The position numbers and the translations under genes are program-made. Of a DNA stretch of 64,000 nucleotides, positions 28,673 through 31,786 are shown one piece after another (position 1 is the stretch's first letter; every line of letters begins with the position of its first letter). The notes beneath the pieces are model-generated. The model worked only from the letters and a program-made list of their open reading frames with translations, ran no database searches and was not told the origin of the DNA. Source of the DNA: Halomarina ordinaria. Lineage in GTDB: Archaea > Halobacteriota > Halobacteria > Halobacteriales > Haloarculaceae. The DNA lies in NCBI RefSeq assembly GCF_030553305.1, contig NZ_JARRAH010000001.1:124001-188000 (forward strand), written 5' to 3'.

Positions 28673-29590
28673 ATGCTGCGGCGGGTCAGACGACGACTGC
28701 AGGGCCTCTACGGACGACTCCTCGAACGCGAACTCTCGGGGACGCCGACGCACGTCGCCGTCATCCAGGACGGCAACCGCCGGTACGCGGACCGTCAGGG
28801 GAAAGGGACCGCCGCGGGCCACCGTGCGGGCGCCGAGACCACCGAGGCGATGCTCGACTGGTGTTCCGAACTCGGCATCGAGGAACTCACGCTCTACGCC
28901 TTCTCGACGGAGAACTTCGACCGGCCGCCGGCCGAACGCGAGGAACTGTTCGACCTCATCGAACGGAAGCTCTACCAGTTCGCCGACGACTCGAACGTCC
29001 ACGAGGAGCGCGTCCGCATCCGCGCCATCGGACAGCTCTATCGCCTCCCGCCCCGCGTGCGCACGGCTATCGACTACGCCGAGGCGCAGACGGAGAACTA
29101 CGACTCGCAGTACCTGAACGTCGCGCTCGGCTACGGCGGGCGCGCCGAACTGCTCGACGCCGCCCGCGGCATCGCCGGCGCCGTCGAGCGCGGTGAACTC
29201 GCCGCCGCCGACGTGGACGTCGAGGCGGTCGAGGAACGCCTCTCGGGCGGCCCCGCTCGCGCCGTCGACCTCATCATCCGGACCGGCGGCGACGAACGCA
29301 CGAGCAACTTCCTCCCGTGGCACGCCAACGGCAACGAGGCGGCCGTCTTCTTCTGTGCGCCCTACTGGCCGGAGTTCTCCCGCGTCGACTTCCTCCGGGC
29401 CATCCGCACCTACCAGTCGCGCCAGGAGTCCTGGCAGCGTACCCGCACCGAACGCGCGCTCGCGCTGCTCACCGCCGTCGGCAGCGACGAGCGCGCGCGA
29501 CTGCTCGGCCGCCTGCGCACGGAGAACGCCGACATCGACCTGCCCGACGAACGCGTCGAGGAGGTCGACATCGAACTCAAGGCGGACTGA
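28673..29590 (+). CDS. uppS: cis-prenyltransferase, catalytic-type subunit (UppS-like)
   Basis: 305 residues. Builds long cis-polyprenyl diphosphates, in archaea the precursors of dolichol-type glycan carriers. The catalytic Asp is at residue 33 in AVIQDGNRRYADRQG; then ELTLYAFSTENFDRPP near 90 and DLIIRTGGDERTSNF near 200. After that the canonical LYF-type region is replaced by EAAVFFCAPYWPEF, and the usual Arg-x-Gly end is absent; the tail ends with an acidic extension. It converges with a second cis-prenyltransferase gene. The ATG at 28673 fits; frame is open 14 codons upstream. Confidence 0.92.
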   Translation: MLRRVRRRLQGLYGRLLERELSGTPTHVAVIQDGNRRYADRQGKGTAAGHRAGAETTEAMLDWCSELGIEELTLYAFSTENFDRPPAEREELFDLIERKLYQFADDSNVHEERVRIRAIGQLYRLPPRVRTAIDYAEAQTENYDSQYLNVALGYGGRAELLDAARGIAGAVERGELAAADVDVEAVEERLSGGPARAVDLIIRTGGDERTSNFLPWHANGNEAAVFFCAPYWPEFSRVDFLRAIRTYQSRQESWQRTRTERALALLTAVGSDERARLLGRLRTENADIDLPDERVEEVDIELKAD

Positions 29591-29719
29591 GACGCTCGCG
29601 ACGGCGTCCGGGTGCTCCGCTCAGGTGTCGCCCTCCGCCACCACCCCCGTCGAGCGTCCCGCGTTCGCCCGACGGCCGAACGTCCGCGAGACTCGCGTCG
29701 TCTGGACGCTTCGCTTCGC

Positions 29720-30328
29720 TCAGCGTCCATACCGCCGCTGTCGGTCCTGGTAGTCCCGTACGGCGCGGAGGTAGTCGCGCTCGCGGAAGTCACGCCAGTT
29801 GACGTCGGTGAAGTACAGTTCCGAGTAGACCGACTGCCATATCATGAAGTCGGAGAGCCGTTCGGCGCCGGTCTTGATGACGAGGTCCGGGGCCGTCGGG
29901 AAGACGAGCCCGGCCTCGATGTGCTCCTCGTCGATGTCGGCGCTGTCGAGGTCGCCGCGCTCGACGGCGTGCGCGACGTCGCGGACGGCGTTGGCGAACT
30001 CGGCGCGGCCGCCGAGGCCGATGCTCACCTGGATGGGCGCGTCCGCGCGCTCTCCGTCCTCCGGTCCGCGGACGGCGAGGGGTCGGGGGGCGTCGAGGCG
30101 GTCGAACGACCCGCGGAGCGTGGGGACGGCGGCCTCGTCGAGGACGGAGACGTACACCATCACGCGCTCGGCGCCGTAGTCGAACGCCCAGCCGAGGACG
30201 GACTCGAGCGTCTCGTAGGCCCCGGGTTCGAGGAGGTCGCGCTCGGTGATGACGAGCGCGACGGTCCGGGGGTGCCGGGCGCGGCTTCGGCCGATGCGAA
30301 GCGCGAGATAGCGGTCGTAGAGTCCCAC
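29720..30328 (-). CDS. cis-prenyltransferase-like partner lacking the catalytic Asp motif
   Basis: 202 residues. The family's substrate-binding part is well kept: PDLVIKTGAERLSDFMIWQS then ELYFTDVNWRDF, and it ends RQRRYGR, the canonical Arg-x-Gly end. But the catalytic DGNRR motif is replaced by TERDLL near residue 28, so the Asp is Glu or lost. It lies tail to tail with the catalytic-type gene. I infer a heteromeric partner like NUS1/NgBR. Start is GTG at 30328; the longer frame from 30397 is less likely. An alternative is an independent short-chain enzyme with altered chemistry. Confidence 0.75.
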   Translation of the reverse strand: MGLYDRYLALRIGRSRARHPRTVALVITERDLLEPGAYETLESVLGWAFDYGAERVMVYVSVLDEAAVPTLRGSFDRLDAPRPLAVRGPEDGERADAPIQVSIGLGGRAEFANAVRDVAHAVERGDLDSADIDEEHIEAGLVFPTAPDLVIKTGAERLSDFMIWQSVYSELYFTDVNWRDFRERDYLRAVRDYQDRQRRYGR

Positions 30329-30445: not shown

Positions 30446-31786
30446 GTGGACTCTACCGTCCGGCGGGCGGGCGCGTTCGCGCTCGTCGGTGCGCTCTCGC
30501 TCGCCGTGCCCGCCCTCGCGGGACGCCTCGACCCTCCGGTCGCGACGGTGACAGCGGTGCTCCCGTTCCTGCTCGTCGCCGTCGCCGCCCTGACCGCGAG
30601 CAAGGGGGGCCGTCTGTTCGACCTGTTCGCCCGCCCCGGGGACCGCGAGGAGGGCCGACTGTACGGCCTCGCCGGGTTCGCGCTCGCGGCGGCCGGTCTC
30701 GCGCTCCTCACCGCCGTCGGCCTCCCGACGGCCGTCGTCGTCGCCACCCTCCTGCTCGTCGTCGTCGGCGCGTTCGCGGAGGCTGGGGTCCGAGGGCTGT
30801 GGGGGGACCCTTTCTACGCGGTGGCGGCCTTCGTCGCCGTGGGGTTCGGCGCGGGCGTCCTCGGTCAACTCGCGGCCGCTGCCCTCGACGTCGCCTCGCG
30901 GTTCGTCCCGCCGGAGGCGCTGTTCCTCGCGGCGACCGGGGCGCTGCTCGCGGCGCTGTTGCGCTCGATGCTCTTCGAGCGCGACGACCCGCTCGTCCTG
31001 CTCACCGTCGCGCTCGTGCTGTGGCTGTTCGACGACCTCGCGCTCGCGCTCACCCCCCAGCAGGTCGTCGTCGGCCTCGCCGTCACCGTCGCCCTCGGGT
31101 ACCTCTCGTACGCGCTGGAGACGGCCTCCATCACCGGGATGCTCGCGGGGGTGTTCCTCGCGTTCCTCACCGTCATGCTGGGGGGATTCGGCTGGCTCGC
31201 GGTGCTCGTCTCCTTCTTCGGCATCGGCGGCCTCTCGACGAAGTTCCGCTACGAGCAGAAGCGCGAACGCGGCCTCGCCGAGGGGAACGACGGCGCGCGC
31301 GGGAGCGGCAACGTCCTCGCCAACTCGGCGGTGGCGCTCGCGGCCGTCCTCGGCGCCGCGACCAGTTCGGTGATCGGCCTCCCTGAGTCGGTGTTCTTCT
31401 TCGCGTTCGCCGGGGCCGTCGCCGCCGCGATGGGCGACACGCTCTCGTCGGAGGTGGGCGGCCTCTACGGCCCCCCGCGGCTCATCACCACCCTCGAACG
31501 CGTCCCTCCCGGCACGGACGGCGGCGTCACCTGGCAGGGCGTCGTCGCGGGACTCGCCGGAACGGCCGTCGTCGCCGGCATCGCCGCCCTCTTCTTCGAC
31601 CTCGGGGTGGTCGCGGCGCTCGTCGTCGTGGTCGCCGGATTCGTCGGGATGACCGCCGACAGCGTCCTCGGCGCGACGGTCGAGGGGGGCGTCGTCGGTA
31701 ACCAGGGCGTGAACTTCCTCGCGACGCTCGTGGCGGCCGTCGTCGCGGGCGCCTGCGCACTCGGTCTCCCCGCGGTGGCGCTCTGA
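30446..31786 (+). CDS. DUF92 (TIGR00297/VTE6-like) membrane protein
   Basis: 446 residues with about twelve transmembrane segments. The second half matches DUF92: FGIGGLSTKFRYEQKRERGL, AAMGDTLSSEVGGL and GMTADSVLGATVEGG. Plant relatives (VTE6) phosphorylate phytyl phosphate using CTP; the archaeal role is unknown but a prenyl-phosphate kinase would suit the neighbouring prenyltransferase genes. The first half is a membrane domain of unclear relation. Start GTG at 30446; its TGA overlaps the next gene's ATG by one base. Confidence 0.88.
   Translation: MDSTVRRAGAFALVGALSLAVPALAGRLDPPVATVTAVLPFLLVAVAALTASKGGRLFDLFARPGDREEGRLYGLAGFALAAAGLALLTAVGLPTAVVVATLLLVVVGAFAEAGVRGLWGDPFYAVAAFVAVGFGAGVLGQLAAAALDVASRFVPPEALFLAATGALLAALLRSMLFERDDPLVLLTVALVLWLFDDLALALTPQQVVVGLAVTVALGYLSYALETASITGMLAGVFLAFLTVMLGGFGWLAVLVSFFGIGGLSTKFRYEQKRERGLAEGNDGARGSGNVLANSAVALAAVLGAATSSVIGLPESVFFFAFAGAVAAAMGDTLSSEVGGLYGPPRLITTLERVPPGTDGGVTWQGVVAGLAGTAVVAGIAALFFDLGVVAALVVVVAGFVGMTADSVLGATVEGGVVGNQGVNFLATLVAAVVAGACALGLPAVAL

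Follow-up and report, generated by a model that had tools for sequence, protein, structure and literature searches.

A candidate heteromeric cis-prenyltransferase encoded by two convergent genes in Halomarina ordinaria

Two cis-prenyltransferase family genes at a convergent locus

The window analysed here, a stretch of 64,000 nucleotides of the Halomarina ordinaria genome, contains two convergent genes whose products, P0001 and P0002, both score above the Pfam cut-off of 27 bits for the family PF01255 (Table 1). These are the sole family members in the genome (3.6 Mb, 99.9% complete), and fold searches with the AlphaFold2 monomer models of both proteins retrieved cis-prenyltransferases exclusively. 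The initial Met is conserved in at least 90% of the sequences in the catalytic and partner alignments alike, which supports both starts. The roles of the human DHDDS residues listed in Table 1 (D34, R37, R38, R205, R211, S213) are those given in PMC7573591.

Table 1. Features of the candidate cis-prenyltransferase locus (positions in the window)
Feature	Position	Strand	Remarks
Putative catalytic subunit gene, DHDDS-like, 305 aa	28673..29590	+	P0001; PF01255 225.7 bits, whole domain
DGNRR block: catalytic Asp33, Arg36, Arg37 (human DHDDS D34, R37, R38)	28769..28783	+	invariant 77/77
R203...R209-x-S211, isopentenyl diphosphate phosphate site (human R205, R211, S213)	29279..29305	+	invariant 77/77
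Helix-turn-helix at the C-terminus (residues 237-266, 271-284) where an RxG tail would be	29381..29524	+	predicted, AlphaFold2
Putative partner subunit gene, NUS1-like role, 202 aa, GTG start	29720..30328	-	P0002; PF01255 93.2 bits, C-terminal half only
TERDLL where the catalytic DGNRR block would be	30230..30247	-	translation; E. coli UppS alignment
C-terminal R199-Y-G201-R202 and stop codon; putative trans-acting RxG, one residue after Gly	29720..29734	-	ends of relatives
DUF92 membrane protein gene (PF01940)	30446..31786	+	187.9 bits; divergent neighbour of the partner gene

Translation of the plus-strand gene yields the block IQDGNRRYAD with Asp33, as the preliminary description had claimed, together with EAAVFFCAPYWPEF, and the C-terminal part reads NGNEAAVFFCAPYWPEF. 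No Arg-x-Gly is present at the site used by homodimeric enzymes, in either the translation or the alignment. The preliminary description was thus right about the presence of EAAVFFCAPYWPEF and the absence of Arg-x-Gly. We rejected the reading of EAAVFFCAPYWPEF as a degenerate C-terminal motif, since in the alignment of relatives this is a conserved signature of the archaeal catalytic subfamily. In the monomer model of P0001 (mean pLDDT 83.7), the family fold is followed by two predicted C-terminal helices.

The minus-strand product begins directly at the domain, with no N-terminal extension or membrane anchor, and Pfam gives no match for its N-terminal half. It contains LVITERDLL, ELYFTDVNWRDF and SELYFTDVNWRDF and ends in RQRRYGR, so that the TERDLL stretch, the canonical ELYFTDVNWRDF and the RRYGR end described for it earlier are all confirmed by translation. 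The P0002 model has a mean pLDDT of 84.4 and is weak at residues 164-171, which form a conserved stretch themselves; DHDDS chains are among its best fold-search matches.

Gene order was read in 80 named haloarchaeal loci (L124-L203), with at most 8 kb of flanking DNA per side. In 66 of these, the catalytic and partner genes converge; in the other 14, the catalytic gene lies beyond the examined DNA. No other orientation was found. The same order recurs outside the haloarchaea, in several distant families of the phylum (G118, G129, G134, G137, G155, G167 and G179, among others), and in Methanosarcina the two genes are far apart. For genes whose products form one enzyme, a convergent, never co-directional order is unusual, and because the genes do not form an operon, co-transcription cannot be used as support. 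One haloarchaeal genus (g12; G006, G011, G065, G072, G097, G103) has the subunit genes far apart, and its partner match is broken in two near query residues 90-100, which suggests an insertion.

On the other side of the partner gene, the divergent DUF92 gene is adjacent in 57 of the 80 loci. Linkage of uppS with DUF92 is known, and a kinase step in isoprenoid metabolism has been proposed for it (PMC5898192). The DUF92 protein probably belongs to the isoprenoid-pathway context of the pair and is not a subunit; the linkage suggests a role in a step of polyprenyl phosphate metabolism.

Complementary active-site residues and joint presence of the two genes

An alignment with E. coli UppS was built from 77 proteins of the catalytic type and 70 of the partner type, taken from haloarchaea and from further families in the phylum. 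In E. coli numbering, Asp26, Gly27, Asn28, Arg30, Ser71, Asn74, Arg77, Arg194, Arg200 and Ser202 are present in all 77 catalytic-type sequences; Glu80, Asn81, Arg84 and Arg36 of P0001, the counterparts of human E81, N82, R85 and R37, which the NUS1 end contacts, are conserved in 76 or 77 of them. Where E. coli UppS has its RxG (Arg242, Gly244), the residues are mixed. At the homologous place, RxG is absent from the catalytic subunits of all 66 named haloarchaea; 73 of the 76 proteins in a wider catalytic set lack it altogether, and the other three have R-x-G strings away from that place.

The partner-type proteins present the mirror image. The commonest residues at the positions of UppS D26-R30 are T/E/R/D/L; at Asp26 itself, Thr, Ser or Ala prevail and Asp occurs in 3 of the 70, and the Arg77 loop is lost in essentially all of them. 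Nevertheless, the partners end in R-x-G-X-stop (68/70) or K-x-G-X-stop (2/70), always with exactly one residue past the Gly, and R-x-G-X-stop is the end of each of the 80 named haloarchaeal partners. In homodimeric enzymes of known structure, the chain ends 1 to 14 residues past the RxG Gly. A one-residue end is therefore found outside heteromers as well; its constancy in the archaeal partners is nevertheless notable. The split of DGN and RxG between the two chains is far beyond chance.

This pattern bears on two other readings of the locus. Both proteins are UppS family members by profile, as would be expected of two separate homodimeric enzymes with differing products. Such an arrangement is next to impossible given that the catalytic Asp block and the Arg77 position are missing in essentially all 70 partners and that Pfam does not recognise the N-terminal half of P0002; with its catalytic block lost, the partner was rejected as a homodimer in its own right. 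The short minus-strand gene that has lost the catalytic block might be taken for a decaying duplicate. This, too, has a negligible probability and was rejected given the universal presence and strong conservation of the partner: it is found in 116 of 116 Halobacteria and 145 of 147 genomes of the phylum, and across 37 haloarchaeal sequences, the mean column identity is 79%, with 58 invariant positions.

The preliminary description had named the occurrence of one gene without the other among relatives as a finding that would speak against a heteromer. Among 147 genomes sampled evenly across the phylum, 145 encode both subunits, two encode neither, and none encodes a single one. The two genomes that lack both subunits belong to the same genus, and three more incomplete genomes of that family are also devoid of any PF01255 member. 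Because the genomes lacking one gene are the same as those lacking the other, and there are no single-gene genomes, the subunit pair is kept or lost together. In a separate survey of 116 Halobacteria genomes that are at least 90% complete, a partner orthologue is present in all 116, and two or more family members in 115; the remaining genome, G072, is a draft in about 120 contigs in which the partner alone was found. The relatives searched for the pair all lie inside the phylum; one scan of contigs returned haloarchaea and archaeal metagenome-assembled genomes only.

Several genomes depart from the simple one-to-one pattern. Loci L246 and L247 (G068, G061), and likewise G098 and G105, encode a second complete catalytic paralogue alongside a single partner gene. 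One haloarchaeal genome of the sample carries a divergent third family member (L245; G002:C1:478925-479599, minus strand) with the block IPDGHRRYAD and the end RRNEGR. Five drafts from two genera, one whole family (G122, G130, G262, G264, G268), contain no cis-prenyltransferase family member.

The P0001 chain contains every residue needed for catalysis, and homodimers of human DHDDS have poor but measurable activity (PMC7573591), so the plus-strand protein might be active alone as a homodimer, the minus-strand protein being a regulator or having an unrelated role. We consider this improbable, given the lack of RxG in 66 of 66 named haloarchaea and 73 of 76 proteins of the wider set, a catalytic subunit that never occurs without its partner in the 145 genomes, and a partner that retains precisely the active-site tail with the fixed one-residue end. 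The weak activity of human DHDDS alone implies by analogy that the catalytic subunit of the proposed heteromer might not absolutely need its partner.

Relationship to archaeal, bacterial and human enzymes

PMC8131916, which cites Emi et al. 2019, describes a heteromeric Methanosarcina mazei enzyme that is formed by the paralogues MM_0618 and MM_1083 and has C45-50 products; MM_0014 is a separate M. mazei enzyme without RxG (PMC8131916). A heteromer of this kind is accordingly already known from archaea as well as from eukaryotes, and the novelty of the locus is less than the preliminary description implied, although its reading as one heteromeric enzyme held up; the haloarchaea are an added member.

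The M. mazei-like genome G241 encodes three members of the family in all, one of which is identical to MM_0014 in the PDB at 199 of 200 positions, so the remaining two correspond, by elimination, to MM_0618 and MM_1083. P0001 and P0002 match this pair one to one, P0001 with 48% identity and P0002 with 39% over its whole length; against MM_0014, P0001 has 23% identity and P0002 merely a 50-residue match. In the maximum-likelihood tree, the partner clade (support 97/99) and the catalytic clade (95/86) each include a Methanosarcina counterpart. Thus, P0001 and P0002 are one-to-one counterparts of MM_0618 and MM_1083, these gene numbers being assigned by elimination. Since each clade contains its own Methanosarcina counterpart, the tree indicates that the split into two subunits probably is older than the divergence of the sampled families. 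In both species, one paralogue has the catalytic residues and the other ends in RxG; unlike the distant Methanosarcina genes, those in the window are adjacent and convergent.

MM_0014 and MA1831 (PDB 7CAQ, 7VQ9) are of the same superfamily and also lack RxG (PMC8131916), but sit on a tree branch separate from that of the window proteins. A family member in G235 is identical at 200 of 200 positions to PDB 7vq9, presumably MA1831 from M. acetivorans, the PDB name being generic. In the same phylum as H. ordinaria, Af1219/Af0707 of Archaeoglobus fulgidus is reportedly another heteromeric cis-prenyltransferase that needs both subunits (J Biochem 2022). The homodimeric UppS of E. coli (IspU) shares the fold and family, and all UppS active-site elements are present across the two archaeal proteins; unlike UppS, which has DGN and RxG in a single chain, the window pair splits them.

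The division of labour resembles that in human DHDDS/NUS1 (NgBR; PDB 6W2L, 6Z1N), where the RxG of NUS1 enters the DHDDS active site, and deletion or extension of the last NUS1 residue lowers the activity of the enzyme (PMC7573591). Human NUS1 (chain 6w2l_B) ends in RLGK, that is, R-x-G and one residue, compared to RYGR in the archaeal partner. At the site of catalytic loss, both human NUS1 and P0002 read LVITE (30230-30259 on the minus strand, followed by the conserved Asp31). The C-terminal helices predicted in P0001 are reminiscent of the DHDDS helix-turn-helix, which is incompatible with the contact made by an RxG-type tail and drives tetramer formation (PMC7573591). Several archaeal catalytic subunits end 20-30 residues past the WPxF motif. 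The helix-turn-helix is thus not general among the archaeal relatives, and a heterotetramer of the human type need not apply. Unlike NUS1, the archaeal partner lacks an N-terminal membrane anchor, and in its C-terminal half it resembles bacterial enzymes much more closely than NUS1 does.

Whether these similarities reflect shared or convergent origin is a question of real interest that the archaeal pair makes testable. Among solved structures, the best match of the catalytic profile is human DHDDS (E 3.5e-70; E. coli UppS, 2.5e-67), and the N-terminal half of the partner matches DHDDS at 6.8e-6, NUS1 at 0.0017 and the best bacterial protein at 0.0033, the others being at about 1 or absent. AU tests rejected neither a tree that joins NUS1 to the partners (p 0.40) nor one that joins DHDDS to the catalytic subunits (p 0.61); each human subunit was represented by a single sequence, the branch of NUS1 is very long, and the archaea came from one phylum. 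The profile matches and AU tests are suggestive only; as hints of a shared archaeal and eukaryotic origin we count the best profile match to DHDDS, the matches of the N-terminal half, LVITE, RxG with one residue after it, and the survival of the shared-origin trees in the AU tests. Descent of the DHDDS/NUS1 heteromer from an archaeal two-subunit enzyme, as opposed to independent origin, is on this basis a tentative and rather doubtful proposition.

Proposed enzyme and its product

Taken together, family membership, complementarity of residues, the NUS1-like geometry of the partner C-terminus, strict co-occurrence and orthology to the M. mazei pair support the earlier proposal of one heteromeric enzyme: the two genes very probably encode two subunits of a single cis-prenyltransferase that makes the N-glycan carrier. 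Counted against the heteromer are the partner-only genome G072, the convergent order without an operon, and the absence of the helix-turn-helix from several relatives.

From the sequences and the human structure, we infer complex formation, completion of the active site in trans, the substrate and the chain length as follows. The plus-strand subunit would bind Mg2+ and the allylic diphosphate via Asp33, Arg36, Arg37 and Arg84 and isopentenyl diphosphate via Arg203, Arg209 and Ser211, and would hold the growing chain. The minus-strand subunit, having no catalytic site of its own, would dimerise with it by way of the conserved C-terminal half; the tail of the minus-strand subunit, R199-Y-G201-R202, would cross the interface and complete the active site, as RLGK of NUS1 does in the human enzyme. 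By the same comparison, the partner Gly and neighbouring backbone would hold the phosphates of isopentenyl diphosphate, and the terminal carboxylate would meet Arg36 and Arg84. From what is known of the pathway, the substrate would be geranylgeranyl diphosphate and the product most likely a polyprenyl diphosphate of C55-60, which would be converted to the dolichyl phosphate carrier for N-glycosylation by AglB.

The genome indeed encodes an AglB-type oligosaccharyltransferase (856 bits), and has no further family member to make the carrier. These observations, and the putative carrier chain length obtained with the M. mazei orthologues according to PMC8131916, make it quite unlikely that the heteromer is real and its product serves another purpose, for example, as a different polyprenyl lipid. 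The neighbouring DUF92 protein, the substrate of which is unassigned, would fit that alternative.

Haloarchaea are a main model for archaeal N-glycosylation. In the literature searched, with most subscription papers outside it, we found no haloarchaeal assay of the enzyme that makes dolichyl phosphate. To the known archaeal heteromer, the present analysis adds a haloarchaeal member, strict pairing throughout the phylum and a fixed terminal geometry. If both genes are needed, the second "UppS", so named by profile, would be a required non-catalytic subunit, and expression of a single gene would fail. A mutation of the RxG motif in the human DHDDS/NUS1 enzyme causes disease, and the near-universal, strict pairing would make haloarchaea, and the phylum at large, a source of a simple soluble model for this enzyme. 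In one of the most stripped-down forms of the partner (L244, in G132; G124 is similar), the protein is only about 165 residues long, with a shortened N-terminal half, and that of L244 still ends in RERRFGR.
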